From NCBI GenBank assembly GCA_003990705.1, contig AP018318.1:930001-994000 (forward strand): 64,000 nucleotides of DNA, read 5' to 3'. The stretch's first letter is position 1. Each line of letters begins with the position of its first letter. The DNA is from Nostoc sp. HK-01. GTDB lineage: Bacteria; Cyanobacteriota; Cyanobacteriia; Cyanobacteriales; Nostocaceae. The notes under the pieces were generated by a model that was not told where the DNA came from, searched no databases, and was given only the letters and a program-made list of their open reading frames with translations. Below, piece after piece: positions 1 through 23,026 of the stretch. The translations under genes and the position numbers were made by a program.

Positions 1-306
1 AGGAAAGCCTGGAGGTAAAGTCACAATTCCTTTGGCAACAAGCTGTCTAAATTGGTTGATCAGGTCTGCTTGTCTTAATATGCGAGTAACATATTTAGGT
101 CGCATACGAAAGTCAGTTCCCCAGTCCTTAACAGTTTTTGGGCTAGTACCTGTGACTTGGGCGATCGCATTAATGCAAGCTTTTCGATAATTGCGACCTG
201 GTTCTGGAATAACCCAACGACGACAATACTCCATCGGTTCAAGGGGCAACTGACGGAGCATATCAATTGGATGATTATTCTGATGGGAGTTTCTCCCAGT
301 CTGCAT
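1..306 (-). CDS. Small helix-turn-helix protein, partial (runs off left edge)
   Basis: An open frame starts at ATG 306-304 and has no stop to base 1 (102 residues visible). It contains PLEPMEYCRRWV, then a helix-turn-helix-like stretch (YRKACINAIAQVTGTSPKTV, DWG) and a second half with RMRPKYV. The start is preceded by a GA-rich stretch but no strong Shine-Dalgarno. The next gene to the right, split by an insertion sequence, is a clear paralog with the same order of motifs, which supports this frame over the overlapping frame at 75-335. The family looks like a small cyanobacterial DNA-binding protein. I do not recognise a specific function; a regulator of neighbouring cargo is only an inference. 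Confidence 0.65.
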   Translation of the reverse strand, partial: MQTGRNSHQNNHPIDMLRQLPLEPMEYCRRWVIPEPGRNYRKACINAIAQVTGTSPKTVKDWGTDFRMRPKYVTRILRQADLINQFRQLVAKGIVTLPPGFP

Positions 307-445
307 TTTGCATCTTTGTGAGTCAGATTAAGCAAGCAGAGATAGGGAGTATTTAAAAGCCCCTGAGCTAACCAGTTACTCTCAAGAATCCTATGCTTAC
401 TGAACCCAACTTAAAAAATCTCAGCTTACATTACAAGTATTTTAG

Positions 446-458
446 TCACGAATCACGA
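446..458. promoter_or_regulatory. Repeated TCACGA motif in spacer of the HTH genes
   Basis: TCACGA-A-TCACGA is a direct repeat 140 bp upstream of the partial HTH gene. The second HTH paralog has the same half-site as an inverted repeat just upstream of its start (2415-2427). Shared half-sites next to two paralogous HTH genes suggest an operator; this is inference. Confidence 0.3.
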
Positions 459-463
459 CTAAA

Positions 464-579
464 TTATTTTTGCGGATAATCAGGAGGTAAGACTATTTTT
501 CTAATTTGATTAAGCATATCTGCCATGCGTAATATATGCACTACATAATTAGGTCTCCTCTCAAAGTTTTGTCCCCAAT
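464..579 (-). pseudogene. C-terminal part of IS-split HTH gene
   Basis: Read on the minus strand, this gives a short frame with DWGQNFERRPNYV followed by ILRMADMLNQIRK and a TAA stop at 466-464. It aligns with the second half of the neighbouring HTH gene (DWGTDFRMRPKYV, ILRQADLINQFRQ). It is separated from its N-terminal half (2198-2405) by the insertion sequence at 580-2197. Removing that element and one copy of the 9-bp duplication joins both parts in frame into a protein of about 104 residues. In its present state it has no start and is presumably not expressed. Confidence 0.75.
571..579. repeat. Target-site duplication, left copy (GTCCCCAAT)
   Basis: GTCCCCAAT directly abuts the left end of the insertion sequence and recurs at 2198-2206 directly after its right end. 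Nine base pairs fits the duplication size seen in part of the IS4 family. Confidence 0.8.
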
Positions 580-667
580 CATTCGGAACAAGTTAGAAGA
601 GAAAGAATTTTGTCAATAAGTCTTTGAGAATAAATATAGGTGCATAAGAATGATAATTGTAATGAAG

Positions 668-700
668 GTGGAGAGGGCGAGCTTCCCTCGCCCTCTCCAC
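668..700. terminator. 14-bp hairpin upstream of transposase
   Basis: A perfect 14-bp stem (668-681 with 687-700) surrounds a 5-base loop, built on GTGGAGAGGGCGAG. It lies between the IS left end and the transposase start. Such hairpins in IS elements can block read-in transcription or sequester the transposase start region; which applies here is inference. Confidence 0.6.
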
Positions 701-810
701 TACTCCTGTTTTTGATTATCATTATCATACGGGTCTGAGAGAATGATTTGCTCTGTTCAAAATCATGGCAAACTCAATTAATACAAGTAATTGAGCGATT
801 GTAAAAAACC

Positions 811-2184
811 ATGAGTAGCAGTCGTAAAACCAATCGAGATCATGCTAAAAAGAAGCAACGCCCAATGATGGAAGACGAAGTAATTGCTTCTCAACTTGAG
901 CAGTTACTTACACCAGCAATCACTTCACAAGAAAATTACTACCGTCAACTGGGATTAAGAGACAGGATTCTCAACTTACCATTAATGGTAGCGGCAGTGC
1001 TAACTCTACTGTGGCGAGACGTGGCGGGAGCCACAGAATTAACCAGAATGTTAGCACGAGAAGGGTTTCTGTGGTGTAAACCTCTTGAGGTGAGCCAACA
1101 AGCAATATCGCAGAGATTTCTGACATTCCCAGCGCAATTATTTGAAAGAGTTTTTAAAGATTTAGTCCCAAAATTACAAGATTCTTGGCAAAGAAGAAGT
1201 AGGCGAAAAGTCCCCCAAAGTGTTCAATTCACTAAGTCAAAATTTGAAAAAATTTGGATAGTAGATTGTTCAATTTTGGAAGCTTTATTTCAGAAGCTTG
1301 ACAGTTTAAAAGATGCTCCGCCTGGTAAATTAGCTGGAAAAATTTGTACAGTTATAGATTTAGTCAATTTTTTACCTGTAGAAATTTGGTTTAATGAGAA
1401 TGCCAGAAGTGCAGATACAAATTTTGAATCAGATATTTTAAAGTCAGCAGATCCCCATACCTTACTTTTATTAGATAGAGGATTTTATCATTTTAACTTC
1501 TGGCTACAACTAATTGCACAAAAAGTGAATTTTATTACTCGGTTAAAAAAGGGAGCAGCAATTCATGTCGAGCAGGTATTTACAGATAGCTTTTCTTTAC
1601 GTGACCGTCTGATACGTCTTGGCTCTGGCACTAAGAAAACTCCGTTTATTACTTTACGTCTGGTCGAAGTTCGTTCAGCTAAGACCTGGCATTCTTATTT
1701 AACAAGTGTGCTTGAACCTACAGTTTTACCACCATACGTTGTGGCTGATTTGTACCGTCGAAGATGGAGAATTGAAGATGCTTTTAATACTGTAAAGCGG
1801 CTCTTAGGTTTAAGTTATTTATGGACTGGTTCTGTTAATGGTGTTCAATTGCAGATTTGGGGTACTTGGTTATTTTATGCTGTGTTAGTTGATTTAGGTG
1901 ATGCTGTCGCCGACGAACTTTCTCTACCTTTTGACTCCATTTCTCTAGAGATGATTTATCGCGGTCTTTATCATTTTTATGTTGCTCATCAAAAAGGTAA
2001 GGCAACTGACCCTATCAAATACTTTGCTGCACCAGAAAATCAAGATTTAGGCATTGTTAAACGACAACGAAAACCAAACATGTTGCTCATCGTTGCTCCT
2101 TTCCCTGATCAACAACGAGGCACACCTGAATTTTTCTTTCAGCCACCTTCTCAAATCCCCTTGACAACTGCCTCACAACCTTAA
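811..2184 (+). CDS. IS4-family DDE transposase
   Basis: This 457-residue protein is encoded by the insertion sequence at 580-2197 and would cut and rejoin its ends. Candidate catalytic residues are Asp at about 152 (WIVDCSILEAL), Asp at about 222 (LLLLDRGFYHF) and the Glu near 322 in YRRRWRIEDAFNTVKRLLG, which matches the Y-x2-R-x3-E-x6-K signature of IS4 transposases. The N-terminal 35 residues are basic and polar; the region at 50-120 looks like the family's DNA-binding part (RDILNL-like, then ATELTRMLAREGF). The ATG at 811 begins a frame with no obvious decay, so the enzyme appears intact. The stop codon lies within the right inverted repeat, which is common in compact IS elements. Confidence 0.9.
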   Translation: MSSSRKTNRDHAKKKQRPMMEDEVIASQLEQLLTPAITSQENYYRQLGLRDRILNLPLMVAAVLTLLWRDVAGATELTRMLAREGFLWCKPLEVSQQAISQRFLTFPAQLFERVFKDLVPKLQDSWQRRSRRKVPQSVQFTKSKFEKIWIVDCSILEALFQKLDSLKDAPPGKLAGKICTVIDLVNFLPVEIWFNENARSADTNFESDILKSADPHTLLLLDRGFYHFNFWLQLIAQKVNFITRLKKGAAIHVEQVFTDSFSLRDRLIRLGSGTKKTPFITLRLVEVRSAKTWHSYLTSVLEPTVLPPYVVADLYRRRWRIEDAFNTVKRLLGLSYLWTGSVNGVQLQIWGTWLFYAVLVDLGDAVADELSLPFDSISLEMIYRGLYHFYVAHQKGKATDPIKYFAAPENQDLGIVKRQRKPNMLLIVAPFPDQQRGTPEFFFQPPSQIPLTTASQP

Positions 2185-2197
2185 CTTGTGACCAATG

Positions 2198-2206
2198 GTC
2201 CCCAAT
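2198..2206. repeat. Target-site duplication, right copy (GTCCCCAAT)
   Basis: Second copy of the 9-bp duplication, directly after the right inverted repeat of the insertion sequence ending at 2197. Confidence 0.8.
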
Positions 2207-2405
2207 TACCTATAGTCCTTTCACTGAGTCCAGTTGCTTCTGCTAAAGCGGCAACGCAAGCTTTCCTATACCCCCGCTCATCAGGAGGCATATCAACCCA
2301 TCGTTTGCAATATTCCAAAGGCTCCAAAGGCAAATCACTGAGCGCATCGATTCTATATTGAGTTGTCTGAGGATTACTGTCTATTGCCCAGTTTGTTCTT
2401 AGCAA
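2198..2405 (-). pseudogene. N-terminal part of IS-split HTH gene
   Basis: The frame starts at ATG 2405-2403 and runs through PLEPLEYCKRWVDM, YRKACVAALAEATGLSERTI and NWG before entering the insertion sequence, where it reads a few foreign residues to a stop at 2181. The motif order matches the partial HTH gene at 1-306 (PLEPMEYCRRWV, YRKACINAIAQVTG). Its C-terminal half survives at 464-579. Joining both across the 9-bp duplication restores a frame of about 104 codons, so the disruption is recent and due only to the insertion. A truncated 74-residue protein with the HTH could still be made. Confidence 0.75.
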
Positions 2406-2752
2406 CCTTTAAACTCACGAATCGTGACTTTTATATTAACAGACATCATGACTGATGATAAGTTGTGCTAAATATACTGTTGTATGGCTCTGTTCTCTGG
2501 CGATCGCATCCTTTAATTTATGAGAAGAAAGCAATTAAATTTTTTGTTATACTTAATTATAAATAGTACAAAAATACTATTTTGCCGTTGAAATGATAGT
2601 TATTTATCTTCAGTTTATCTATAGGCTAGAAGTCTAGTATTTACTCGGTAACACCTCAGCAGATTCCGAATTAAAACAGTGTTGATTAGCACTTAACTAG
2701 AGTAGATAGTGGGAAATCAACTCTCCTGTCTACTCTTCAATACAGGGAAACG
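2406..2752. other. Spacer between split HTH gene and helicase operon
   Basis: This AT-rich, 347-bp divergent spacer must carry the promoter of the helicase/methylase operon and that of the HTH gene. It holds a perfect 13-bp inverted repeat, TCACGA-A-TCGTGA at 2415-2427, ten bases upstream of the HTH start, and one HIP1 core near 2500. I see no RNA gene or further ORF. Confidence 0.5.
2415..2427. promoter_or_regulatory. Palindrome TCACGAATCGTGA, candidate HTH operator
   Basis: A perfect inverted repeat of TCACGA with one central base sits immediately upstream of the HTH start codon at 2405. The same half-site is repeated directly at 446-458 in front of the paralogous gene. Autoregulation by the HTH protein is plausible but not shown. 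Confidence 0.4.
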
Positions 2753-5590
2753 ATGACGGAAATTTTGAACCCCACTCCAGGCTCTATAGTGAGTTGTCGT
2801 AATCGGCAGTGGGTTGTATTACCTGCGGAAAATGAGGATGTTATTCGCTTGCGTCCCATTTCAGGAAACGAAGAGGAAATAGCTGGAATTTACCAGAAGC
2901 TTCAGGAGTTAGGCATAGAAACTCTTGAATCAGCAACCTTTCCGTTACCTAGCTCTATCAGTATTAAAGACCATACAGCAGCAGTTTTACTGATGGATGC
3001 AGCACGTCATTTGCTGCGAAGTGGAGCAGGGCCATTTCGGTGTTTGGGACGTTTATCATTGCGTCCTCGTCCCTATCAGTTAGTACCTTTATTGATGGCG
3101 TTGCGATTAGAAACAGTGCGCCTGCTCATAGCTGACGACGTGGGAATAGGAAAAACCATCGAAGCTGGGCTAATTGCGCGTGAACTTTTAGATAGAGGTG
3201 AAATTAAGCGGATAGCTGTCCTTTGTCCTCCTCATTTATGCGACCAGTGGCAGCAGGAATTACGCGAAAAGTTTCATATTGATGCGGTGGTAGTACGTTC
3301 TGGAACAGCTTCTAAATTAGAACGAGCGATCGCAAATGGCACTCATATATTTAGTTACTATCGACACATTATTGTTAGCCTAGACTATGCCAAGGCAGAA
3401 CGCCGTCGTGCAAGTTTTATTACACACTGCCCTGATTTTGTAATTGTGGATGAGGCGCATACTTGTACGCGTCCTAGTAGCAAGAGTACATCTCAGCAAC
3501 AACGCCACCAATTAATTCAGCAGATTGCCGAAAAAAGCGATCGCCATTTATTATTACTTTCTGCTACTCCTCATAGTGGTATTGAAGAGTCCTTTTTATC
3601 ACTGCTAGGATTGCTTCAACCGGAATTTGAACAATTAACCTTAGACCGCCTAACAGAGAAACAGCGAGACAAACTAGCAAGCCATTTTATTCAGCGTCGG
3701 CGGGCAGATGTTAAACAGTGGTTGGGCAATGAAACACCTTTTCCTGAAAGGGATTCGGAAGAAAAGCCTTACAAGTTATCTAAGGAATATAAACAATTAT
3801 TCGATGATGTCTACAACTTTGCTCGTGGGCTAGTAAAAACTACCACAAACGAAATGAGCTATGCCCAGCGTCGGGGACGTTATTGGTCAGCATTGGCGTT
3901 GATTCGTTGTGTAATGTCTTCCCCAGCCGCAGCAGTAGCAACATTAAACCGTCAGGTGAGTAAATCAGGCGACGATAGTTTACTTGCTGATTTAGACGAA
4001 GACTTAATGAGTTCTTACGTTTACGACCCTACAGACCAGGAGCAAGCTGTTGATGCAACTCCGACTGTAGTTGTAGAACAAGGACAGCAAAGCTATGGCG
4101 ATACAGATAAACGCAAACTCCGAGCTTTTGTGCAAGCAGCCCAAAAGTTACAGGGTGATAAAGACCAAAAATTACAATCATGTATTGCTTCCGTACAAAC
4201 CCTGCTTTCAGAAGGTTTTAACCCGATTATTTGGTGTCGCTATATTGCCACAGCAAATTATGTTGCTGATGCTCTCAAGCAAAAACTAGAAAAGAAAGGC
4301 AGTCAAATTCGAGTCATTGGTATTACTGGGGAACTTTCAGAGGATGAACGAGAAATTCGCCTGCAAGAGTTAAAGTCATATCCTCAAAGAGTTTTAGTAG
4401 CTACCGATTGTTTAAGTGAAGGGGTAAACCTGCAATCTCACTTCAGTGCAGTGATTCACTACGATTTGCCCTGGAACCCCAATCGCTTGGAGCAACGGGA
4501 AGGTCGTATTGACCGTTATGGTCAAACTGCAAGCCAGGTTAAGACCTTGTTGCTTTACGGTTCAGATAATCCGGTGGATGGTGCAGTTTTGGACGTGCTA
4601 ATTCGTAAGGCTGTACAAATTCACAAGACCTTGGGAATTACTGTTCCCGTACCAATGGACAGCACCACAGTGTCGGAAGCTGTTTTTAAATCTTTGTTTG
4701 ACCGCGCTCATGATGCGGTGCAATTGTCTTTGTTGGATTTGCTAGATGAACAAGAATCTGCTGTTGAGCAAGTTCATAAAAATTGGGACAAAGCAGTAGA
4801 GCGAGAAAAGATTAGCCGTACCCGCTTTGCTCAACGCTCAATCAAACCTGCGGAAGTAGAGCAAGAACTAATTGAATCTGAGCAAATTCTAGGTAGTGAA
4901 CACGATGTGCAACGGTTCGTGTTGTCAGCCGCAAATCGCTTATCTTGTTCGTTAACCAAGAAAAAACAGGGTTGGTTACTGTCTACAATTCCTAATTTTC
5001 TCCAGCCTTCACTGGGGGATAAGCCGCGCTTGTTTACCTTTACAACCCCTGCACCAGAAGGGGTGGAATATGTAGGGCGGAATCACCCATTAGTAGAAGG
5101 TTTAGCACGTCACATTATTGAAGATGCGCTCTCAAATAATCAAGACCCTGTAGCAGCACGCTGTGGTTTCACTACGACCGATACTGTCACCAAACGCACG
5201 ACTTTACTGTTAGTGCGGCTACGGCATTTGTTAAACAGCCCCAAACACCAAAGTTTGCTGGCGGAAGAGTGTGCAGTAGTTGGATTTACTGGCCCACCAT
5301 CTAATCCTATTTGGCTGACACCAGAGGAAGCAAAATCTCTGCTGGAACAAGCTAACCCTGTAGGCGATGCGCCTCCAGGTATCAAACAAGCAGAAATTGA
5401 AGAGTTGCTCAGTCAAATCACAGAGATTGAGTCTGACTTAGAACTATTTGCTAGAGAACGATCGCATTCTCTTTCCCAATCCCATCGGCGAGTCAGAGCC
5501 ATCACCCAAGAAGGGCAGATTCAGATTAAACCCCAGCTACCGATGGATATTCTAGGCGTTTACATTCTTCAGCCTGGGAAAAGAAAGTAG
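2753..5590 (+). CDS. drmD: SNF2-family helicase, DrmD-like
   Basis: A superfamily-2 SNF2/HepA-type ATPase of 945 residues, expected to translocate on DNA. Visible motifs: motif I DDVGIGKTIEAG at about 128-139; DEAH box in VIVDEAHTC at about 233-236; motif III SATPHSG at about 270-276; and the C-terminal helicase lobe with ATDCLSEGVNLQ and LEQREGRIDRYGQ near residues 555-600. The combination SATPHSG plus a large C-terminal extension is typical of DrmD, the helicase of class 1 DISARM defence. A methylase follows after 62 bp and a DUF1998 helicase follows that, all on the same strand, which supports an operon. The ATG at 2753 is preceded by AGGGAAACG. The family call is strong. Assignment to DISARM rests on the neighbours, and the core gene arrangement here is not canonical. 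Confidence 0.85.
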   Translation: MTEILNPTPGSIVSCRNRQWVVLPAENEDVIRLRPISGNEEEIAGIYQKLQELGIETLESATFPLPSSISIKDHTAAVLLMDAARHLLRSGAGPFRCLGRLSLRPRPYQLVPLLMALRLETVRLLIADDVGIGKTIEAGLIARELLDRGEIKRIAVLCPPHLCDQWQQELREKFHIDAVVVRSGTASKLERAIANGTHIFSYYRHIIVSLDYAKAERRRASFITHCPDFVIVDEAHTCTRPSSKSTSQQQRHQLIQQIAEKSDRHLLLLSATPHSGIEESFLSLLGLLQPEFEQLTLDRLTEKQRDKLASHFIQRRRADVKQWLGNETPFPERDSEEKPYKLSKEYKQLFDDVYNFARGLVKTTTNEMSYAQRRGRYWSALALIRCVMSSPAAAVATLNRQVSKSGDDSLLADLDEDLMSSYVYDPTDQEQAVDATPTVVVEQGQQSYGDTDKRKLRAFVQAAQKLQGDKDQKLQSCIASVQTLLSEGFNPIIWCRYIATANYVADALKQKLEKKGSQIRVIGITGELSEDEREIRLQELKSYPQRVLVATDCLSEGVNLQSHFSAVIHYDLPWNPNRLEQREGRIDRYGQTASQVKTLLLYGSDNPVDGAVLDVLIRKAVQIHKTLGITVPVPMDSTTVSEAVFKSLFDRAHDAVQLSLLDLLDEQESAVEQVHKNWDKAVEREKISRTRFAQRSIKPAEVEQELIESEQILGSEHDVQRFVLSAANRLSCSLTKKKQGWLLSTIPNFLQPSLGDKPRLFTFTTPAPEGVEYVGRNHPLVEGLARHIIEDALSNNQDPVAARCGFTTTDTVTKRTTLLLVRLRHLLNSPKHQSLLAEECAVVGFTGPPSNPIWLTPEEAKSLLEQANPVGDAPPGIKQAEIEELLSQITEIESDLELFARERSHSLSQSHRRVRAITQEGQIQIKPQLPMDILGVYILQPGKRK

Positions 5591-5652
5591 AGTTAGTCCG
5601 TCCGCTTAATTTTTATTTGTATTTTTTATTTTTGATATTAGGTGTGTGAGAG

Positions 5653-8600
5653 ATGAGTGTAGCAGGGATTACATTAACAGGCGTTCAGATTGAAGGTAAT
5701 TTGTTAGCAGCAGATATGACTGCTGAATTGCTGGCGGGTAATCTGAAAGGGCAAGCACCAGAAGATTTTGGTTTTAGTAAAAGCGACAAACTAGCAGATG
5801 AAATTGCGATCGCTTGGGGTGATGCTAAAGCTTATTGGGCAGCATTTCAACGGCAACTAGACAGGTTAGATGCTGATGACACCGCCACCAGTGTTACCCG
5901 CGAACTGTGGGTAGTTCCCTTGCTACGAAGTCTCGGATATGACCCTGTTTATACAGCAAAAGCCGAAGTGGTGGAAAGAGAAACTTATGCGATTTCCCAT
6001 CGTGCAGAACCGGGGGAGAATAAACCACCTATTCACATTATTGGTTGTCGTATCAAGGTAGATCATCGTCCTCCCAGTGGCACACCCAGGTTATCAGCAC
6101 ACGCACTGGTGCAGGAGTATCTTAACAAGACAGAACATCTGTGGGCGATCGCAACTAACGGTTTTCGCTGGCGGTTACTGCGTGACTCTTCGTTAATGAC
6201 TCGTCTTACCTATATCGAGTTTGACTTAGAACAGATTCTCAACGGTGAGAACTTTGCAGAATTTGGGCTATTTTATCGGTTGTTCCACCGTTCCCGCTTG
6301 CCTGAAGGTGTGGATGATGCGGATAAGTGCTTGCTGGAATATTACCACCAAGAAGCACTGCAACAGGGCGGACGGGTACGCGACAGACTCCGAGATGGGG
6401 TAGAAAAAGCACTAATACAGCTAGGCACAGGTTTTCTCCAACATCCAAGTAATGACAATTTGCGGCAGAAGTTAACTGCTGGTAAAGAATTAACTGATAT
6501 CGGATATTATCGCCAACTGTTGCGGCTGATTTATCGTCTGCTGTTTTTAATGGTGGCAGAATCCCGCAATTTATTATTAACTGGTGAGGATGTCGAGAAA
6601 GCCCGAATCTACCGGGAATATTACAGCATTGAGCGACTGCGAGAGTTAGCCGAGCGTCCCCATTGGCGGCGGGAAGGCTTTCAAGATTTATGGCAAAGTT
6701 TGCGCGTGACATTCCTGCTGTTTGATGAGAACTGGCGAGGAAGATACTTAGGATTGTCACCACTAAATGGTGATTTATTTGGTTCCTATACTCTGCCTGC
6801 TTTAGATGATTGTGCTATTGATAATTACGATTTACTTGTAGCGATTAAGCACTTGTCTCTGTATCAAGAAAAAGGACAGGTACGGCGGGTAAATTATGCT
6901 GGGTTAGACATTGAAGAATTAGGAAGCGTGTATGAAAGTTTATTAGATTTTCATCCAGAGGTCACTCCTAAAAATTACGAATTACAAATTACGAATTACG
7001 AATTCAAACTGGTGTTTGGTAGTGAGAGGAAAACTACTGGCTCTTACTATACACCACCCCAGTTAGTAGGACAACTAATAAAAACAGCTTTAGAACCTGT
7101 AATAGAAGAAAAACTTCGCAGTACAAAAGAAAAACTTCGGAACACAGAAAGCAATTCCCTATTAGAAAAAGTACTTCTCGACCTTAAAATTGTAGACCCT
7201 GCCTGTGGTTTTGGTCATTTTCTCTTAGCCGCAGCACGTCGAGTAGGAAAGGAATTAGCTAAAATTCGTACTGGGGAAGCTGAACCAGGTAGTGAACCTT
7301 TAAAGTTAGCGATTCGAGATGTAATTCAAAATTGTATTTATGGGGTGGACATTAACCCTTTGGCTATTGATTTGTGCAAAGTCGCCTTATGGATTGAAGG
7401 CTTTTCTCGCGGCTTACCTCTTAACTTTTTAGATCATAGGATTAAGTGCGGCAATTCCCTTGTTGGTGTGATGGATTTAAGTTGTCTAGATGAAGGAATA
7501 CCGGATGAAGCGTTTAAACCAGTCACGAGTGATGATAAAGCTTTAGCAAGCCGTCGTAAAAAGGAGAATAAAAACCAACGTGAGACAGATTTACAAGGAC
7601 AGTTATCACTGTTTAATCATTTAGAATTACAACGTATTCAATATATTGAAGATTTTCGAGACTTAGGAGAAATTCCTGAAACTTCACCTCAACAAGTAAG
7701 AGATAAACAAGTGAAGTATCAGCAAAGTCGTAAAAATATGGGTTGGTGGCGAGACTATTCAGCGTGTAATTTATGGACTGCGGCCTTTTTCATGCCATTA
7801 ACTGAAGAGAATTTACAGCTATTACCAACTACAGCAGCTTTATCTCAGCTATTAAAAGGAAATATGCCAACGCAAAAAGTTGTAGATGCAGCAAATAAGT
7901 TGGCTGAAGAAAAGCAGTTTTTTCATTGGTGTTTAGAGTTTCCTGAAGTATTTGAAAAAGGTGGATTTAATTGTGTGTTGGGAAATCCACCGTGGGAACG
8001 AATTAAGTTGCAAGAGAAAGAATTTTTTGCTTCTCAAAGTGCGGAAATTGCTAATGCTGTGAATAAAGCTGCACGGGAGAAGTTAATTAAGGAATTACCC
8101 CAAAAAAATCCTAATTTAGCACAAGCATTTGAAAGAGCGAAGCATGATGCCGAAGCACAAAGTAAATTTATACGCGAGTCCAGTAGATTTAGTTTGACTG
8201 CGGTAGGTGATATTAATACTTATGCTGTGTTTGCGGAGACTACAAGAAGGTTAATTTCATCTGATGGAAGAGTTGGGATAATTGTTCCTACAGGAATTGC
8301 AACAGATGACACTTATAAAAAGTTTTTTGGAGATTTAACACAAAAGCAAGCTTTAGTAAGCCTATATGATTTTGAAAATAGAGAGCATTTATTTACTGAT
8401 CTTCACACTAAAACTAAATTTTGTTTACTAACATTCTCTAATAGCGTAAACAAAAATATTGATTTTTCATTCATGTGTACTAGACTTAATGATTTGAAAG
8501 ACTCTAGGAAGGTTTTTAATCTTGCTTTAAAAGATATATTATTATTTAGTCCTAATACAGGTAACTGTCCGCTCTTCAGAAGCAGTACTGATGCAGAAAT

Positions 8601-9522
8601 AACTAAAAAAATCTATCACCATGTTCCAGTTTTGGAAAATGATTGTACGGGTTATAATCCGTGGGGTGTATCATTTATGGCTATGTTTCATATGTCAAAT
8701 GATAGCGCTTTATTCAAGGATGATGTATCTGATGCTTTTGTTCCTTTATATGAAGCGAAGATGTTTTATCACTTCGATCATAGATGGGCAACTTATCATA
8801 ATAAAGAAGTAAAAAATTTCACGGATATAGATAAGACTAATCCCAATAGTTTTGTAACGCCTCGCTACTGGATTAGTCAGAGAGAAGTCGAAAATCGTTT
8901 AGCAAATAAATGGGATAGAGAATGGTTAATATCTCTTCGGGATATTACTGATTCTAGAAATGAACGTACTGCGATTTTTACGATATTACCTAAAGTTGGT
9001 ACTGCTAACCCTGCAAATACTTTATTTATTGAATCCAGCCATTATAAGAAAGTTTCTTGTTTAATAGGCAACTTCAATAGTTTGATTTTTGATTTTGTAG
9101 CTAAACAGAAAGTTGGTGGTACTCATCTAGCTTTTTATATTCTCAAGCAACTTCCCGTCCTTCCTCCAGAATTATACACCCCAGAACATATCAAATTTAT
9201 CAGCACCCATGTACTCGAATTAGTTTACACCTCATGGGATATGCAACCCTTCGCCAAAGATATGGGATACGACGGCGAACCCTTCATTTGGAATCCCAAC
9301 AGACGCGCATTATTAAGAGCAGAACTAGACGCATATTACGCCAAACTCTACGGACTCACCCGTGATGAACTGCGATATATTCTCGACCCTGGTGATGTCT
9401 ATGGCGAAGACTTCCCCAGCGAAACATTCCGTGTTCTAAAAAATAATGAAATTAAGCAGTTTGGTGAATATCGCACACAAAGACTGGTATTAGAAGCATG
9501 GGACAGAATGTTTGGCTCTTAG
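5653..9522 (+). CDS. Large N6-adenine DNA methylase (DrmMI/Eco57I-like)
   Basis: A 1289-residue class-1 (gamma) adenine methyltransferase that would use S-adenosylmethionine to mark host DNA. The N-terminal 400 residues resemble the non-catalytic or nuclease-like part of type IIG/ISP enzymes (RELWVVPLLRSLGYDP at 83-98; LWAIATNGFRWRLL at 163-176). RKTTGSYYTP at about 459-468 introduces the methylase domain. Motif I is VDPACGFGHFL at about 514-524 and catalytic motif IV is GNPPW at about 777-781. The remaining 500 residues should hold target recognition. It lies between the DrmD-like helicase and the DUF1998 helicase (47 bp to the next start), the place of drmMI in class 1 DISARM. A degenerate heptamer repeat, in frame at about residues 440-451, has been absorbed just before the catalytic domain. 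Confidence 0.88.
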   Translation: MSVAGITLTGVQIEGNLLAADMTAELLAGNLKGQAPEDFGFSKSDKLADEIAIAWGDAKAYWAAFQRQLDRLDADDTATSVTRELWVVPLLRSLGYDPVYTAKAEVVERETYAISHRAEPGENKPPIHIIGCRIKVDHRPPSGTPRLSAHALVQEYLNKTEHLWAIATNGFRWRLLRDSSLMTRLTYIEFDLEQILNGENFAEFGLFYRLFHRSRLPEGVDDADKCLLEYYHQEALQQGGRVRDRLRDGVEKALIQLGTGFLQHPSNDNLRQKLTAGKELTDIGYYRQLLRLIYRLLFLMVAESRNLLLTGEDVEKARIYREYYSIERLRELAERPHWRREGFQDLWQSLRVTFLLFDENWRGRYLGLSPLNGDLFGSYTLPALDDCAIDNYDLLVAIKHLSLYQEKGQVRRVNYAGLDIEELGSVYESLLDFHPEVTPKNYELQITNYEFKLVFGSERKTTGSYYTPPQLVGQLIKTALEPVIEEKLRSTKEKLRNTESNSLLEKVLLDLKIVDPACGFGHFLLAAARRVGKELAKIRTGEAEPGSEPLKLAIRDVIQNCIYGVDINPLAIDLCKVALWIEGFSRGLPLNFLDHRIKCGNSLVGVMDLSCLDEGIPDEAFKPVTSDDKALASRRKKENKNQRETDLQGQLSLFNHLELQRIQYIEDFRDLGEIPETSPQQVRDKQVKYQQSRKNMGWWRDYSACNLWTAAFFMPLTEENLQLLPTTAALSQLLKGNMPTQKVVDAANKLAEEKQFFHWCLEFPEVFEKGGFNCVLGNPPWERIKLQEKEFFASQSAEIANAVNKAAREKLIKELPQKNPNLAQAFERAKHDAEAQSKFIRESSRFSLTAVGDINTYAVFAETTRRLISSDGRVGIIVPTGIATDDTYKKFFGDLTQKQALVSLYDFENREHLFTDLHTKTKFCLLTFSNSVNKNIDFSFMCTRLNDLKDSRKVFNLALKDILLFSPNTGNCPLFRSSTDAEITKKIYHHVPVLENDCTGYNPWGVSFMAMFHMSNDSALFKDDVSDAFVPLYEAKMFYHFDHRWATYHNKEVKNFTDIDKTNPNSFVTPRYWISQREVENRLANKWDREWLISLRDITDSRNERTAIFTILPKVGTANPANTLFIESSHYKKVSCLIGNFNSLIFDFVAKQKVGGTHLAFYILKQLPVLPPELYTPEHIKFISTHVLELVYTSWDMQPFAKDMGYDGEPFIWNPNRRALLRAELDAYYAKLYGLTRDELRYILDPGDVYGEDFPSETFRVLKNNEIKQFGEYRTQRLVLEAWDRMFGS
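6971..7005. repeat. Short tandem repeat (AATTACG type) inside methylase gene
   Basis: Four tandem 7-8-base units of the type AAATTACGAATTAC lie in the coding frame and encode NYELQITNYEF. The same kind of repeat is dispersed in Nostoc-type genomes, mostly in spacers. Here it keeps the frame and sits in the linker before the RKTTGSYYTP motif. Confidence 0.6.
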
Positions 9523-9569
9523 ACAACAAACCTAAACCTTAAAACTTATCAATTTTAATAACTTAAAAT

Positions 9570-12500
9570 ATGGCTTTTACTGTAAAACTACAAGAATTAT
9601 TACAGCAACCTGAAAATGCAATTTTACCTATTAGTAATTTATTAGGACAAAAATTAGCATCGCTAGATTGTACAGGAGTGGTAGCTGTTACATCAGAGCA
9701 ATTAACTTTGCTATTTACAGGTATCCCTCAAGATTGGGCTATACAAGAAATTCAAGAAATCTTCGACTTTTCTACCATTACCCAAACCTTTAACTACCAA
9801 CTTCGAGAATGGATTGACCAACGCTTAGGTCGAACAAATAATCAAGTACCAGCAAAGAGTAATTCATCCTCTCCCGCCAATTCTCAGTTCCTTGATATTT
9901 TCAATTTCCGCAACGAAGTAATTGGCGACTACCGCCGCTATATTGAAAGCTTCCTTAAAATCCGTGACGAAAAAGTAAAAACCTTTGTCGATAGCGAGTT
10001 AGAAAAAGGTCAACTCTGGACTGACCCTTTAGTGCAACTTAATCCTAAATATCGTCCAGGCGCATCTGTCGCCACATTAGTACAACAACGAGTTCTCCAT
10101 CCAGACTGTAAACGCTATTTCTCAAACGATGGTGAACCTTTTACCTTCCACTACCACCAAAAACAAGCCTTTGAAACTGCACAACGTCAAGATCACTACG
10201 TTGTCACCACAGGAACGGGTTCCGGTAAAAGCCTAACTTATGTTGTCCCCATTATTAATGATTTACTTCACCATCCCGAAATTAAAGGAGTTAGGGCTAT
10301 TTTGGTTTATCCCATGAATGCCCTAATTAATTCTCAGGAAGAAGAATTAAGAAAATTTCTCAAACAAGTACCTAACACCCACATTAGAGTTGAAAAGTAC
10401 ACTGGGCAAGAAAAACGAGAGAAGAAAGTCGAAATTCAAAACAACCCGCCTCAAATCTTACTAACAAATTACGTAATGCTAGAGTTAATGCTCTCTCGCA
10501 CTCACGAAGATAAATTAGTAGAATCTCCCGATTTAAAATTCCTCGTACTAGATGAACTGCATACTTACAGAGGACGGCAAGGTGCAGATGTCAGCATCTT
10601 AATTCGCAAACTTCGGCAACGCTGCGGCCAGAAACTTTTGTGCATTGGTACTAGTGCCACCATGTCTTCCGAAGGTTCCCGCCAACAACGCCGTCAGGTA
10701 GTCGCAGATGTTGCTAGTAAATTATTTGGTGTGGAAATTAAATCCAGCAACGTCATTGATGAAACTTTAGAACGTTCCATCCAAAGTGCTGCACCCACCA
10801 CAGAAAAATTGCGTGAAAGCATTATCCAAGGTTTACGGCCAAAGTCCGAACAAACCTTAGAGGCTTTTCAACAGCATCCCTTAAGCCACTGGGTAGAGAT
10901 GAACTTTGGTTTGGAAGAAAAAGAAGGTCATCTCGTCCGCCGCACACCCATCACCCTAGAAGTAGGTGCAGAACAACTCGCAAATCAAACCCAACTGGAC
11001 GAGGAAACTTGCTTAAATATCCTCAAGCAGATATTTCTCTGGGGCAGCAAAACTAAGGGGTTGGCATTCCGCTTGCATCAGTTTATTTCCCAAGGAGGTA
11101 GCGTTTACGCCACCATTGAAAATCGCAACCAACGACTTCTCACCCTCGAAGGTCAGTACACAACCACCGAAAACCGCCTGCTTTATCCCCTCGTCTTTTG
11201 TCGGGAATGCGGACATGACTATTATGTAGTGCGCTACGATGCGGAAAAAGACATTGTACTACCTCAATTACCCACAGCCTTAGATAGCCTTGACAATGAA
11301 GACATCAAGGAAGGCTACTTAACCCTTGATGAACCAGGACTTTGGGATAAAGAAGACGAAGAGAGACTTCCTGACTCATGGTTTAAAGAAACTAAAAAGC
11401 AAGGGCGTATTCCTGACAAAAAATATGCAGCTTTTATTCCTCGCAAATTGCAAGTTCTCCCCAACGGTAAAGTTATAAACTCTGTATTAGAGGGAACAAC
11501 TTGTTGGTTTATTCCCAAACCTTTTCTTACCTGTCTTCACTGCGGTGTATTGTACGACCAAAAGAAAAACGAATTTACCAAACTCTCTCGTCTGAGTAGT
11601 GAAGGACGTAGTACCGCAACCACCCTACTTTGTCTTTCTAGCGTCAGTCGCCTCAAGCAAGTTTTCACTGACGATAAAGCCAAAGCCGCAAAAATCCTCA
11701 GCTTTACCGATAACCGTCAGGATGCTTCATTACAAGCAGGACATTTCAATGATTTTGTCCAAACCAGTTTCTTGCGGGCAGCTTTGAATAGTGCCATGCA
11801 GGAAAATCAACAATTAACTCACAAAGCACTGGCGGCAGAAGTTGTCAAAAAAATGGGTTTATCCCAAGCAGACTATGCCCGTCAAGTTGCCGAATTTGGC
11901 ATTGGTAAACGCAAAAATGAAGAAGCTTTTAGCAACTTAATTGAATATCGGCTATACGAAGATTTACGTCGCGGTTGGCGAATTGTTCAACCTAATCTAG
12001 AACAGTGCGGTTTACTAACCATAGAATACGCTGAACTATTAGCAACTTGTGAAAATACTCAACTTTGGCAAAAATACCGCCATCCCATTTTACTGCAAGC
12101 CTCACCTGCACAAAGATATTTTGTCATCAAAACCTTTCTTGACCACCTGCGGAAGAAATTGGTTATCGATGCCGAAATTTTACAAAAAAATGGCATAGAA
12201 CAACTACGCAAGGAAGTATCCCAAGCACTAAAAGACCCTTGGACAATTGATGCTTTTGAATATTTACACGAAGCTGCTTGGGCAAGCCTCAGCCCCACAG
12301 AGAAGAAAGGTAAATCAAGAACAATTAGGCTAACATTTCGTGGCGAAATCGGACGTTTTCTGCGTTCTAGTCGAGCATGGGACTGGTTGCATAAACCTTT
12401 ATCAGAAGCAGATTATAACGAATTAATTAATGCTCTAGTCCATGCTTTAGCAGATGCAGGTTACTTATACAAGAAGCAAGAAGAAGTCCAGCTAAAAATT

Positions 12501-14918
12501 AATTCAATGGTCTGGGTCGCCTCAAAATTAAGTGAGATTCCCCCCGACCCTTTAAATTCCCGTCGTTTACAAGGTAGCGAAAGAAATACTTCTGTCAACC
12601 AATTTTTTCAAGATTTCTACCAAACTAACGCTCATCAAATTAAAGCACTAGAAGGGCGAGAACATACAGGACAGGTCAAAAACGAAAAACGTCAGCAACG
12701 AGAAGATGACTTTCGTCATGGCAAATTAGCGGCTTTATTTTGTTCCCCAACAATGGAATTGGGGATAGACATTTCCGACCTCAGCGTTGTTCATCTGCGA
12801 AACGTTCCCCCCAGCCCAGCCAATTATGCCCAACGTAGTGGTCGCGCAGGAAGAAGCGGACAGGAAGCTTTAGTAATTACTTATGCTTCCATTGGTAGCG
12901 GTCACGACCAATATTTCTTTAAACGTCAAAGTCAAATGGTGGCTGGTGTCGTCGCCCCGCCCAAATTAGAACTAGCCAACCAGGATTTAATTACATCTCA
13001 TGTGTATTCAATTTGGCTGGCACACACTGGCTTAAACTGGGAAAATTCCATGAATCAAATTCTGGAATTAGATTCGCCAGACTGTCCGCTAAAACAAGAT
13101 GTGACTGAGAAAATCAAGCTGAGTCAGGAAAAATTAGCCAAATGTCTGGCAGCTACAAAACTAATTTTATCTGATATGTTCTGCCAAGAAGACCTGAATA
13201 AAACCTCTTGGTATTCAGAAAATTGGTTACAATTCACCCTAGAAAATGCACATAATGCCTTTAATCAAGCTTGCGATCGCTGGCGTAGATTATACAAAGA
13301 CGCACAAGAACAATTAGAAACAGCCCGCGACAGCATGAGTCGTTACACTAGAGGCTACGCTACTCAAGAAGAACGGGATATTGCTAAAGCCCAAGAGAAA
13401 GAAGCACTACGGCAAATCGACCTGCTAGTGGGACAAGTCGAAAGCAACAGCAATAATCAGTTTGAATTTTACCCTTATCGCTACTTTGCTGCCGAAGGAT
13501 TTTTACCAGGGTTTAACTTCCCTCGCTTACCAGTCCGGGCATTTATTCCTACAGACGAAGGAGGCGAATTTATTTCCCGCCCCCGCAGCGTTGCTTTAAG
13601 AGAATTTGCACCAAGTAATATTATTTACTACGAAGGCAGTAAATTTATGGTGGCTAAAACCAAAATGCCTGTTGGTGGTGCTGATTATCAACGAGTAAAT
13701 GTCTGCTTTAAATGTGGTTATTTCCATGAAGGGATAGCCAGTAGCCGCGACACCTGTGAGAACTGCGGCGCAAAACTTGCCGATAGTAAAAACAATAAGG
13801 CTTTACTTACTCGCTTATTATCAATGGAAACTGCGATCGCCTGGAGGCGAGAACGCATTACCTGTGATGAAGAAGAACGCCTGAAGTACGGTTACAACGT
13901 CACCACCCACTTCCGTTACGATAAGCAAAAACGCCAATCAGCCACAGTAAAAACTGCCAATGGCACAGAATTACTCCGATTAAAGTACAGTGCTACAGCA
14001 GACATCTGGCATATTAATCGCGGACTTAACAAGAAGAAAAGCGAAGAAAAAGGATTTAAACTCGATATCAAAACTGGTATTTGGGGCGAATCCAAAAATG
14101 ACTCGGCAAAAGATAGTATTCACACCGACGTTAACTTAATGGTGAACAACACCTGCAATATCCTAGTTGTGGAACCATTAAATGTCCCCACAGACAACAG
14201 AGAAGCTTTTATTACCACCCTACAGTACGCTTTAGAAACTGCCATCCAAGCAGTGTACAAATTAGAAGCCGACGAACTCGACTCCGAACGCTTAGGAGAT
14301 GGTAAATATTTGCTGTTCTGGGAGGCTGCGGAAGGCGGTGCTGGTGTCCTTTCTCAACTATTAGAAAAACCCGAAGCTTTTCAAAAAATCGCCGATGCAG
14401 CTTTAGATATTTGCCATTTTCAAGAAGCGAAAGATAGCTGTGTTCAAGCTTGCTATGAATGCTTGCTTTCTTACCGCAACCAATTCGACCATGCTTTGAT
14501 AAATCGTCATCTCATCAAACCCTTACTTGACGAACTGCAAAACAGTACAGTGCAGATAGAAGGGATATGTCGTGATGAACAGTATCAACATCTGTTACAA
14601 CAAACAGATCCAAATTCCCAATTTGAGCGCATAGTTTTAACAGCAATTTATCAAATAGGATATAAATTACCTGATACTGCACAAGAATTAATTTTAGAGG
14701 CAAACTGTAAGCCAGATTTTCTTTATAAAGAAGATGGCATTGCTGTTTTCTGTGACGGTTCAGTTCATGACAGCCCTGAGAAACGCAGACAAGACAAAAT
14801 TGAGCGAGATAATCTCAAGTACAACACGAGTTACACTGTCATAACGCTGCGGCATGATGAAGATTGGGCAGCGAAGTTGAGTGCCTTGGAGGGTTTGTCA
14901 ATGATTAGGAAATTCTAA
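9570..14918 (+). CDS. DEAD-box helicase/DUF1998 fusion with C-terminal nuclease-like domain
   Basis: A 1782-residue superfamily-2 helicase. The N-terminal lobe has Walker A TGTGSGKS at about 214-221, a DEAD-type box LVLDELHTYRGRQG at about 326-338 and CIGTSATM. The C-terminal lobe has SPTMELGIDISDL and QRSGRAGRSGQ near 1060-1100. Zinc-ribbon cysteines occur as CRECG, as CFKCG with CENCG, and as CYECL. AAEGGAGVL near 1580 and CVQACYECLLSY near 1623 mark the DUF1998 domain. The last 100 residues (FERIVLTAIYQIGY, then CKPDFLYKEDGIAVFCDG and a later KRRQDKIERDNL) look like a PD-(D/E)xK or Vsr/DUF559-type nuclease. In DISARM the helicase (DrmA) and the DUF1998 protein (DrmB) are separate and a phospholipase-D nuclease (DrmC) follows; here one chain seems to combine all these roles. 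DruE of Druantia and MrfA-type helicases are alternative relatives. Confidence 0.85.
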   Translation: MAFTVKLQELLQQPENAILPISNLLGQKLASLDCTGVVAVTSEQLTLLFTGIPQDWAIQEIQEIFDFSTITQTFNYQLREWIDQRLGRTNNQVPAKSNSSSPANSQFLDIFNFRNEVIGDYRRYIESFLKIRDEKVKTFVDSELEKGQLWTDPLVQLNPKYRPGASVATLVQQRVLHPDCKRYFSNDGEPFTFHYHQKQAFETAQRQDHYVVTTGTGSGKSLTYVVPIINDLLHHPEIKGVRAILVYPMNALINSQEEELRKFLKQVPNTHIRVEKYTGQEKREKKVEIQNNPPQILLTNYVMLELMLSRTHEDKLVESPDLKFLVLDELHTYRGRQGADVSILIRKLRQRCGQKLLCIGTSATMSSEGSRQQRRQVVADVASKLFGVEIKSSNVIDETLERSIQSAAPTTEKLRESIIQGLRPKSEQTLEAFQQHPLSHWVEMNFGLEEKEGHLVRRTPITLEVGAEQLANQTQLDEETCLNILKQIFLWGSKTKGLAFRLHQFISQGGSVYATIENRNQRLLTLEGQYTTTENRLLYPLVFCRECGHDYYVVRYDAEKDIVLPQLPTALDSLDNEDIKEGYLTLDEPGLWDKEDEERLPDSWFKETKKQGRIPDKKYAAFIPRKLQVLPNGKVINSVLEGTTCWFIPKPFLTCLHCGVLYDQKKNEFTKLSRLSSEGRSTATTLLCLSSVSRLKQVFTDDKAKAAKILSFTDNRQDASLQAGHFNDFVQTSFLRAALNSAMQENQQLTHKALAAEVVKKMGLSQADYARQVAEFGIGKRKNEEAFSNLIEYRLYEDLRRGWRIVQPNLEQCGLLTIEYAELLATCENTQLWQKYRHPILLQASPAQRYFVIKTFLDHLRKKLVIDAEILQKNGIEQLRKEVSQALKDPWTIDAFEYLHEAAWASLSPTEKKGKSRTIRLTFRGEIGRFLRSSRAWDWLHKPLSEADYNELINALVHALADAGYLYKKQEEVQLKINSMVWVASKLSEIPPDPLNSRRLQGSERNTSVNQFFQDFYQTNAHQIKALEGREHTGQVKNEKRQQREDDFRHGKLAALFCSPTMELGIDISDLSVVHLRNVPPSPANYAQRSGRAGRSGQEALVITYASIGSGHDQYFFKRQSQMVAGVVAPPKLELANQDLITSHVYSIWLAHTGLNWENSMNQILELDSPDCPLKQDVTEKIKLSQEKLAKCLAATKLILSDMFCQEDLNKTSWYSENWLQFTLENAHNAFNQACDRWRRLYKDAQEQLETARDSMSRYTRGYATQEERDIAKAQEKEALRQIDLLVGQVESNSNNQFEFYPYRYFAAEGFLPGFNFPRLPVRAFIPTDEGGEFISRPRSVALREFAPSNIIYYEGSKFMVAKTKMPVGGADYQRVNVCFKCGYFHEGIASSRDTCENCGAKLADSKNNKALLTRLLSMETAIAWRRERITCDEEERLKYGYNVTTHFRYDKQKRQSATVKTANGTELLRLKYSATADIWHINRGLNKKKSEEKGFKLDIKTGIWGESKNDSAKDSIHTDVNLMVNNTCNILVVEPLNVPTDNREAFITTLQYALETAIQAVYKLEADELDSERLGDGKYLLFWEAAEGGAGVLSQLLEKPEAFQKIADAALDICHFQEAKDSCVQACYECLLSYRNQFDHALINRHLIKPLLDELQNSTVQIEGICRDEQYQHLLQQTDPNSQFERIVLTAIYQIGYKLPDTAQELILEANCKPDFLYKEDGIAVFCDGSVHDSPEKRRQDKIERDNLKYNTSYTVITLRHDEDWAAKLSALEGLSMIRKF

Positions 14919-14996
14919 CCCCTTCTTGAACAGAGATTAGCGTCATTTCTACCTAATAAACACTAAAATATTTGAAATCATTGTTGTGGAATGTAA

Positions 14997-15503
14997 CTAA
15001 GCTGGTAAAACTTTGGCTCTTTGCTCAAAGCTTTTGAAGTCTATTACTTTCGAGTGTCTAGCAGCTTCCCAAATTTCATTCACAATCTCTGTTAGTGAAG
15101 GTATCACAAGTAGAACGTACTGCCCTACTTGCTTATTACTTTTGTCTGCTACTTTCATAGCTGTAGGTAAATTTTCGCCAAAGTCTGACCAATCTTGCTG
15201 AACCCAAAAGACTTCTTCACCAATAACGACTAACTGCTTATCCCTCAAACCGTTATCATAACCGCTGTCATCTAAAAACTTTATTATTTTTCTGACTGTT
15301 TGTAGAGATACATTTTTTCTTAAATTTTTGATAGCTCGTATTTCTAGAAGTTGCTCCCAGCTAAAAATTACAGTTGGTCTTGCGTTACTCCCAAATCTGT
15401 AAGGAATGACTAGACCTACTTTCTCCAGATAGGCGAGTCGGCTGGAAGTACAACCTGCCAGATGTATTGTCTCTTGCCTTGTAAAACCTGACATCTGGTT
15501 CAT
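14997..15503 (-). CDS. MerR-like helix-turn-helix regulator
   Basis: A 168-residue protein. Its N-terminal 70 residues fit a MerR-type winged helix: FTRQETIHLAGCTSSRLAYLE, then KVGLVIPY, then a wing and SWEQLLEIRAIKNLRK. The middle part resembles the DUF433/antitoxin-like region found behind such domains (VSLQTVRKIIKFLDDSGYDN, LVVIGEEVFWVQQ). It is encoded opposite to the two defence modules on either side and its 3' end converges on the helicase stop 78 bp away. Its start faces a 448-bp divergent spacer that carries a long dyad. It is therefore the likely regulator of the methylase/MBL module, or an antitoxin-like guard. M4 could be the start instead of M1. Confidence 0.7.
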   Translation of the reverse strand: MNQMSGFTRQETIHLAGCTSSRLAYLEKVGLVIPYRFGSNARPTVIFSWEQLLEIRAIKNLRKNVSLQTVRKIIKFLDDSGYDNGLRDKQLVVIGEEVFWVQQDWSDFGENLPTAMKVADKSNKQVGQYVLLVIPSLTEIVNEIWEAARHSKVIDFKSFEQRAKVLPA

Positions 15504-15951
15504 GCTTGTTACCTTATCTACTTACGTACTTCTTTTTCGGCTTTAGTCTCAAAGAGCTAGAGTTTGCGTTGAATTATATCAAAACTGCTTATAGCTACGA
15601 TTTAGTATCAATGAAGATGTTATTACAAAACTTTGTTACACAAAAAACTTATTTTGTAGAACAAAGTGATAATATTAAGCAATATTAATATAAAAAAGCT
15701 TAATCTGGATTGTAGACGTTAAGTTATGTCTTACTTACTAAGCCAAGTAAATACAAGCCACAGCTAGTTTTACTCATGGATTTATAACCCATTGCATTAG
15801 TTGGCTTAAGCAACTTTTGTTATCTGTAGCAATTCCAAGCGATCGCTTTTTTGGTTGATTTTCACCATAGTGGTGACAAGTTGATGCCAGATTGGTAATC
15901 TAAAACACATCACTAGATAATTATTATTTTTGTAGTAAATTTGATTTTAAA
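15504..15951. other. Divergent spacer between regulator and second methylase
   Basis: 448 bp with no credible ORF. It contains an imperfect 16-bp inverted repeat at 15630-15667 and one HIP1 octamer core near 15840, and is otherwise AT-rich. Promoters for the regulator and the methylase must lie here, but none can be fixed by eye. Confidence 0.5.
15630..15667. promoter_or_regulatory. Long dyad, candidate operator of MerR-like regulator
   Basis: The arm ACTTTGTTACACAAAA (15630-15645) and the arm TTTTGTAGAACAAAGT (15652-15667) match in 14 of 16 positions as an inverted repeat around a 6-base centre. The dyad lies 127 bp upstream of the regulator start and 285 bp upstream of the methylase. It could be an operator or an RNA hairpin; a MerR-type site is an inference. 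Confidence 0.45.
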
Positions 15952-18714: not shown

Positions 18715-18722
18715 AAATTTTT

Positions 18723-19778: not shown

Positions 19779-20301
19779 GAAAAGGCAAAAAACAGTGAGG
19801 ACATTCACCTTGTACCCAATCTGCGGGAATAGGGAAAGTAGTTTCACAGTTAGTACATTTGGTTAACAAGCGTAAATTGTGGCGATCGCATTTCATTTTA
19901 TCCTTGTACTGCCACTCAATTCGATGACAAGGTACTTCTGCATAGCAAGCAGCACATAATCGAATTGGTCTAGGTTTCATCGTTACGCCTTTGGGTGGCA
20001 GCATCTCATATATTCTATTGGTTGGTAGACAAATAAGCTTGCCCAAAGCTTCTAATTCTTTATTACTAGGAAATGGATTGAAATAAAGCTTCTCCCACCG
20101 CGTAGTCACAGCACCAATACCAGCAATCTTTCCTAAAGAGTAGCCAGAAGGAAGACTGTTAGCCTTGAATCGGCGCAAACGCCCCAAGTAATGACTAATG
20201 CTTTCTCCTTCGTATGGATCAACATAGCCCAACCTGAGCAAAGCTTCATGATTGTCATGAATTCTTATTTCTATTTTCGGGGGGAATGTATCTCTTGCCA
20301 T
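19741..20301 (-). CDS. tniQ: TniQ-family transposon target-selection protein
   Basis: 186 residues, the short TniQ form also found in type V-K CAST (about 170 residues). It has the family start YVDPYEGESISHYLGRLRR, a helical middle, and a zinc-binding C-terminus: CAACY, then MKCDRHN, KCTNC and GECPHC. TniQ links target choice to the TnsC filament. The ATG at 20301 overlaps the end of tnsC by 47 bp in another frame, typical of translational coupling. Its 3' end overlaps the MBL gene by 38 bp in convergent orientation. Confidence 0.88.
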   Translation of the reverse strand: MARDTFPPKIEIRIHDNHEALLRLGYVDPYEGESISHYLGRLRRFKANSLPSGYSLGKIAGIGAVTTRWEKLYFNPFPSNKELEALGKLICLPTNRIYEMLPPKGVTMKPRPIRLCAACYAEVPCHRIEWQYKDKMKCDRHNLRLLTKCTNCETTFPIPADWVQGECPHCFLPFPMMVKRQRQLSN

Positions 20302-21109: not shown

Positions 21110-21112
21110 ACA

Positions 21113-22969: not shown

Positions 22970-23026
22970 TTAAGCAAGGAGAATGTAGTTATTGGTAGTA
23001 TTAATGTACCATTAACTAAAGAAAAT

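Follow-up and report, generated by a model that had tools for sequence, protein, structure and literature searches.

Which system do three closely spaced helicase and methylase genes of Nostoc sp. HK-01 represent, and what kind of element carries them? The DNA analysed, hereafter the window, spans 64,000 nt of contig AP018318.1 (positions 930,001-994,000; contig C1 of genome G000 in our numbering), and a further stretch, L020, covers the DNA left of its left edge. Our analysis indicates that the genes very probably form an ARMADA Type I system, armA-armB-armC, carried as cargo of a type V-K CRISPR-associated transposon (CAST) in a Nostoc-like cyanobacterium. ARMADA itself is known, having been presented in a 2025 preprint as the missing link between DISARM and Druantia (Bell et al., PMC12458937); the CAST carrier is unexpected. 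Here and below, statements drawn from cited papers refer to those portions of their text that were available. The cassette comprises three open frames on the + strand, free of internal stops and separated by gaps of 62 and 47 bases:

2753..5590, + strand: armA-like SNF2/RapA (BrxHII-like) helicase, 945 aa (Pfam SNF2-rel_dom and Helicase_C; identity to Type I loci)
5653..9522, + strand: armB-like PglX/Eco57I N6-adenine methylase, 1289 aa (Pfam Eco57I/N6_Mtase)
9523..9569: ArmB-ArmC junction, 47 bases, empty in the window and a variable accessory slot among relatives
9570..14918, + strand: armC-like YprA-family helicase, 1782 aa (Pfam DEAD, Helicase_C and MZB, PF09369)
14220..14465, + strand: ArmC MZB (DUF1998) zinc-binding domain, residues 1551-1632 (PF09369, E 9.4e-8)
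14532..14915, + strand: putative Vsr/DUF559-like C-terminal segment of ArmC, residues 1655-1782, with E1686, D1716, D1729 and H1733

The original prediction, made from the letters of the window, had described an SNF2 helicase, a 1289-residue adenine methylase and a single 1782-residue protein on one strand, the last combining DEAD-box motifs, DUF1998 motifs (the domain now called MZB; PMC12458937) and a Vsr-like C-terminal segment. Frames, Pfam domains and motifs agree with that description, for the C-terminal segment at the level of sequence. The ArmA-like protein carries DDVGIGKT at 128 and DEAH at 233, the ArmB-like protein DPACGFG at 515 and NPPW at 778, and ArmC carries GTGSGK at 215, DELH at 328, QRSGRAGR at 1088 and the cysteines C1624, C1628 and C1631.

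Affiliation of the helicase was assessed by profile, structure and tree. Against the 2023 PADLOC library, ArmC scored 315, 291 and 259 bits with DruE models and 49 bits with the best DrmA model. The top match among PDB chains was 9tu7, a 2108-residue DEAD/DEAH helicase (E 2.9e-44) that we infer from its chain length to be DruE, followed by MrfA/YprA (6znp, E 3.7e-24); no DrmA-named entry appeared at E<=0.001. In a quick maximum-likelihood tree of 33 helicases (27 Type I-like, the window's included, three ARMADA II and three Druantia III), for which the program flagged long branches and which holds no DISARM (no DrmA row), Dpd, BRIGADE, TALON or Druantia I/II rows, the window's helicase groups with Type I, apart from ARMADA II and Druantia III, with Shimodaira-Hasegawa-like approximate likelihood ratio (SH-aLRT) values of 99-100 on these branches. 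DruE far outscores DrmA, an outcome that the original prediction had itself named as its refutation, and the proposed fusion of drmA and drmB into one gene does not hold.

The two partner proteins point the same way, as the best partners for all three genes were Type I sets among the sets compared. ArmA is 39-53% identical to its counterparts in five Type I loci (Chlorohelix, Caballeronia, Deinococcus, Rhodococcus and Mesorhizobium), 30% to that of Haloquadratum and 27-29% to those of three Type II loci. For ArmB, identity is 35-60% with eight Type I sets from beyond Nostocales, versus 25-30%, over partial length, with Type II methylases. Inspection of its N-terminal alignment by eye revealed no D...ExK signature. 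In Deinococcus radiodurans MP1 (L023, 16946-20497) the methylase position is occupied by two consecutive annotated methyltransferase genes.

As described in the preprint, ARMADA joins a YprA helicase closest to Druantia's to two partners held in common with DISARM and carries a C-terminal Vsr nuclease; the Type I order SNF2-methylase-helicase occurs in many cyanobacteria, and the DUF1998 module is usually fused to the helicase, DISARM being the branch with a consistent split (PMC12458937). The window cassette resembles Type I in its three genes, in their order and in a YprA helicase that bears DUF1998/MZB and, fused to it, a Vsr-like nuclease. It differs in lying on an RNA-guided transposon, whereas the preprint describes phage-satellite-like carriers with integrases, and the words 'Tn7' and 'transposon' are absent from its main text as available (PMC12458937). 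ARMADA Type II (E. coli 17MR471, L029) shares the armA-armB-armC order, but the window lacks armD, its ArmC falls outside the Type II branch, and the methylases are related only at the low, partial-length identity given above. Druantia III (DruE/DruH; L029, L036, L037) is alike in that DruE is the top PADLOC family for ArmC and probably its nearest solved structure; it differs in its separate tree branch, in DruH, which the window lacks, and in a C-terminal domain of another nuclease type than ARMADA's (PMC12458937). Druantia membership was rejected: no Dru partner, DruH or other, was found among the scanned open reading frames (ORFs) of the element, and the tree (Type III rows only) separates ArmC.

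The last 128 residues of ArmC contain E1686, P-D1716-F and C-D1729-G-x-x-H1733. When the C-termini of 20 relatives were scanned one by one (E up to 1), MTES_1575 matched ten (best E 6e-6), DUF559 nine (best 2.5e-4) and Vsr two (best 0.11). The window's segment matched MTES_1575 only (E 0.0033; 17.9 bits against a cut-off of 38.2) and by itself, relatives aside, would not pass. A profile built from the 20 C-termini reached PDB 3r3p, a mobile intron protein, over 48 positions (E 1e-4), which we take to be a Vsr-like nuclease. Judged on residues and profiles, the segment qualifies as a putative Vsr-type nuclease with its catalytic residues. Other Type I fold features compared were the canopy, the BrxA-like, beta-barrel zinc and MarR-like inserts and the coiled-coil finger after RecA2; agreement is confined to two CxxC pairs in the sequence, at 544 and 655, and to long helices around residues 1217-1287, the model having a mean predicted local distance difference test (pLDDT) of 47. 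Among the matches listed, ArmC residues 1-107 found cyanobacterial proteins only, plus one Thermus protein from residue 31.

What, then, carries the cassette? The original prediction overlooked the surrounding element, a CAST of 28,795 bp (C1:924438-953232), of which the first 5,563 bases (L020 12438-18000) fall outside the window, to its left. Its other features are:

1..23232: window part of the type V-K CAST
811..2184, + strand: IS4-family transposase, between the Cas12k side and the cassette
14997..15503, - strand: MerR-type regulator, cargo, 168 aa (weak: 21.3 bits against a cut-off of 21.6)
15952..18714, + strand: second N6 methylase, cargo, 920 aa
18723..19778, + strand: MBL-fold protein, cargo, 351 aa, 6A-MBL-like (33 bits against a cut-off of 220)
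19741..20301, - strand: tniQ (type V-K), 306 bits
20255..21109, - strand: tnsC (type V-K), 425 bits
21113..22969, - strand: tnsB (type V-K), 1023 bits
23209..23232, - strand: tnsB-side transposon tip, 24 bases identical to the CRISPR-side tip at L020 12438
L020:16010-17890: GmrSD/DUF262-type restriction gene, CAST cargo left of the window

Left of the window, a tRNA-Ala(CGC) gene at C1:924358-924430 is followed by the transposon tip at 924438, and the same side holds a CRISPR array and Cas12k (692 aa, 1182 bits), with a 53-aa ribbon-helix-helix protein adjoining the start of cas12k. The anchor consists of a shortened repeat and a 17-nt spacer that matches tRNA-Ala at 16 of 17 positions, with a GTA protospacer-adjacent motif (PAM) and 59 bases from protospacer to tip; V-K CASTs are described with a 17-nt anchor, a GTN PAM and a spacing of 46-82 nt (PMC9938897). 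Cas12k and the Tns proteins, the anchor guide, the array and the terminal inverted repeats together mark the element as a type V-K CAST. Its layout parallels that of cyanobacterial V-K CASTs throughout, from the tRNA, CRISPR-side end, anchor spacer, array and cas12k with a small Arc-like regulator to the cargo, TniQ/TnsC/TnsB and the other end (PMC9938897, PMC11406308). Set against those elements, it differs in its ARMADA cargo and in that a 5-bp duplication was not found. The literature consulted held no text describing ARMADA or DISARM in a V-K CAST, although the cargo tables supplementing PMC9938897 and PMC8649781 may list one. The methylase and MBL-fold pair (window 15952-19778) resembles the 6A-MBL defence pair, and the GmrSD-type gene is a further possible defence cargo of the same CAST. 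Rfam at gathering thresholds yielded nothing in the window.

A genome-contig scan able to find close relatives only gave 19 loci; ArmC is 90-92% identical to the window's in seven (L001-L005, L012 and L014) and 68-73% in the other 12. CAST components were sought in fetched flanks of up to 10 kb, and past the flanks at the seven loci with at least 90% ArmC identity; the other 12, some of them short contigs, showed no CAST match within their flanks. CAST proteins or pieces occupy the flanks of five of the seven close relatives: L003, L005 and L014 have Cas12k, the last two along with the three Tns proteins; L001 has fragments of TniQ and TnsB; and L002 has a 46-residue TniQ piece together with a more distant Tn7-like set. 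In L004 a 79-residue Cas12k piece lies just outside the locus, and in L012 a contig end cuts the upstream side. The left ends of L005 and L014 lie at tRNA-Gly(CCC), and their anchor spacer matches tRNA-Gly at 16 of 17 positions, marking them as what appears to be the same transposon lineage at another address. ArmA was not found in L005, whose Cas12k lacks its first 138 residues, and ArmB and ArmC are shortened in L014; among the window and its seven close relatives, a whole CAST with a whole cassette is present in the window only.

In a family sample of 145 genomes, the ArmC helicase (E<=1e-150) was present in 35, the window's own included, and Cas12k in 66. Both lie within 30 kb of each other only in the window's genome and in G033, where the helicase match comes in two parts only; because just these two genomes combine them at that distance, ARMADA appears to be a rare CAST cargo in the family. 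A second ARMADA cassette lies on contig C3 of the same genome (L021:14980-20000 and L022:1-8350), with an ArmC 72% identical to that of the window and an unassigned 414-aa gene between armB and armC. No match was found in the viral contigs scanned with the ArmC-like helicase. Chances are about even that one V-K CAST lineage took up ARMADA Type I once and has since spread it among Nostoc genomes through RNA-guided insertion, with exchange of the 17-nt anchor switching its home between tRNA-Ala and tRNA-Gly; this view of the CAST as vehicle draws on the window plus seven relatives that all bear the name Nostoc.

The junction between armB and armC varies among relatives. It is empty in the window, L006 and L011; in L001-L005, L012 and L016 it is occupied by an intact or fragmented DUF2887 gene; L007 and L013 have a radical-SAM gene there; and ORFs of other kinds or without assignment are found in L008, L018 and the C3 copy. 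A UvrD/GajB-type helicase gene fills it in L009, L010, L015 (two pieces) and Pseudanabaena L030, with a remnant in L019:

L010:7852-9969, L009:8140-9954, L015:7745-9863 and L030:6476-8893: ArmD-like UvrD/GajB helicase genes in the armB-armC slot

Over its whole length, including the N-terminus, the L010 protein can be aligned with E. coli ArmD (25% identity over 740 columns, E 4e-44), and the N-termini of the L010 and L030 proteins are both related to that of E. coli ArmD; in Thermus L028 an ArmD-like gene follows armC. Because the preprint ties ArmD to Type II (PMC12458937), an ArmD-like gene in Type I loci may be new.

How would such a cassette act? By analogy with E. coli ARMADA II and Druantia III, ArmB would methylate adenines and thereby set or read a self mark, while ArmA, a RapA-like translocase, and ArmC would load on foreign, unmarked DNA and unwind it. 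ArmC is predicted to be a superfamily 2 helicase gripping single strands under a zinc canopy, and its Vsr-like tail may cut the foreign DNA, the cell not being killed. The CAST, directed to a tRNA gene by its RNA guide, would move the cassette between sites. In E. coli ARMADA II all four genes are required, as are the Walker motifs in ArmA and ArmC and the NPPW motif in ArmB, and its protection involves no growth arrest (PMC12458937). DruE combines helicase and nuclease functions, with a preference for 3'-tailed DNA; it loads on 3' single-stranded DNA, and in Druantia III it becomes nuclease-competent upon assembly (PMC13192584).

Several observations weigh against an active ARMADA Type I system delivered by this CAST. 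At the ends of the element a 5-bp target site duplication was sought, and TGTAC and CGTTA do not match. Its two flanks are not neighbours in relatives, lying about 0.9 and 3.2 Mb apart in the single-contig genomes G026 and G125. The sister's sequence downstream of tRNA-Ala is inverted and about 50 kb away in the window's genome (C1:1003668-1005414), and the sister's neighbour of the CAST right flank (window 23233 onward) lies at yet another place. These separated flanks and the inverted tRNA-Ala neighbour point to a rearrangement at the CAST right end after insertion; a copy of the transposon ends was sought, and not found, close to the opposite side of the apparent inversion. The nuclease residues are missing in four of the 20 aligned relatives (L031, L032, L034 and L035, from Chlorohelix, Hydrogenimonas, Paracoccus and Mesorhizobium), so ArmC cutting is perhaps non-essential, being either dispensable or done elsewhere. 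An AlphaFold model of ArmC residues 1150-1782 (the mean-pLDDT-47 model above) was too poor for a fold, leaving the nuclease fold unconfirmed, as was a second model, too poor for use at a mean pLDDT of 34. In motif I of ArmB (window 7195-7221), aligned across 19 sites (L018 and L019 yielded none), the window and L002 read GFG, L001 reads GYG and the remaining 16 sites read GSG; in E. coli ARMADA II, alteration of this S-adenosylmethionine-binding motif caused only partial loss of activity (PMC12458937). The window has no ArmD gene after ArmC, the gene that E. coli ARMADA II needs, and an ArmD-like search of the whole genome returned two short, weak matches only. Finally, the literature searched contained activity tests of Type II and none of Type I.

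Some of these points recur in the rival that fares best, an outside but real possibility: the cassette is a passenger whose frames remain open and whose activity has been lost through the motif I change, the want of an ArmD partner and the upstream IS4 gene. The deviation of motif I in the window, L001 and L002, the empty accessory slot and the damage to the same-lineage relatives L005 and L014 all fit such decay, but three long frames stay open and the other motifs checked are kept.

A functional ARMADA Type I cassette remains the reading we prefer, also over the condensed DISARM of the original prediction, in which drmA and drmB are fused and a C-terminal nuclease has taken over the role of drmC. 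That account is now improbable. Its DISARM-like part stands in so far as the SNF2 helicase and the PglX-like methylase are DISARM-type partners: PADLOC DrmD scores 350 bits with the former and a second DrmD model 389.8, and PADLOC DrmMI scores 257 with the latter. The helicase, however, is of Druantia type, nearest to DruE models and, in the tree without a DrmA row, to ARMADA I; the second DrmD score is below its curated cut-off of 610, and neither a separate drmB (DUF1998) nor a drmC (phospholipase D) gene accompanies a protein that gives DrmA 49 bits and DruE 315. Class 1 DISARM, alike in its DrmD- and DrmMI-like partners, was thus rejected, as the window lacks DrmB and DrmC and its ArmC is far from DrmA; the further suggestion of an intermediate between DISARM and Druantia-type helicases had been published in 2025 as ARMADA (PMC12458937).

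Less probable still is a housekeeping, MrfA-like repair set that entered the transposon by chance. MrfA/YprA is indeed the second-best solved relative, and Thermus L033 has no annotated SNF2 or methylase partner in the fetched stretch; but an SNF2 helicase and a methylase are linked to the helicase in seven distant genera (Deinococcus, Rhodococcus, Caballeronia, Haloquadratum, Chlorohelix, Paracoccus and Mesorhizobium; in Hydrogenimonas the stretch stops before any methylase could show), and presence in the family is patchy, at 35 of 145 genomes. A Dpd- or BRIGADE-like system for DNA modification, suggested by the best PADLOC model of the SNF2 protein (PDLC02853 'DpdE', 710 bits, which may itself rest on ARMADA-type proteins), is very improbable and was rejected, given that NCBIfam DpdE scores 217 bits against a cut-off of 500, other DpdE models reach at most 162 bits among the matches listed, and no 7-deazapurine gene occurs among the element ORFs scanned (small ORFs lay outside the scan).

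Collectively, these results place a member of ARMADA, which has been proposed to link DISARM with Druantia and whose tested systems in the literature consulted are of Type II, on an RNA-guided transposon. They suggest that V-K CASTs can also carry multi-gene helicase-methylase systems. The combination of a compact three-gene Type I cassette with a natural programmable carrier makes two questions testable: whether Type I works without ArmD, and whether an RNA-guided transposon can deliver defence. If a CAST lineage does serve as its vehicle, ARMADA would have an RNA-programmed means of transport quite unlike the phage-satellite carriers of E. coli.

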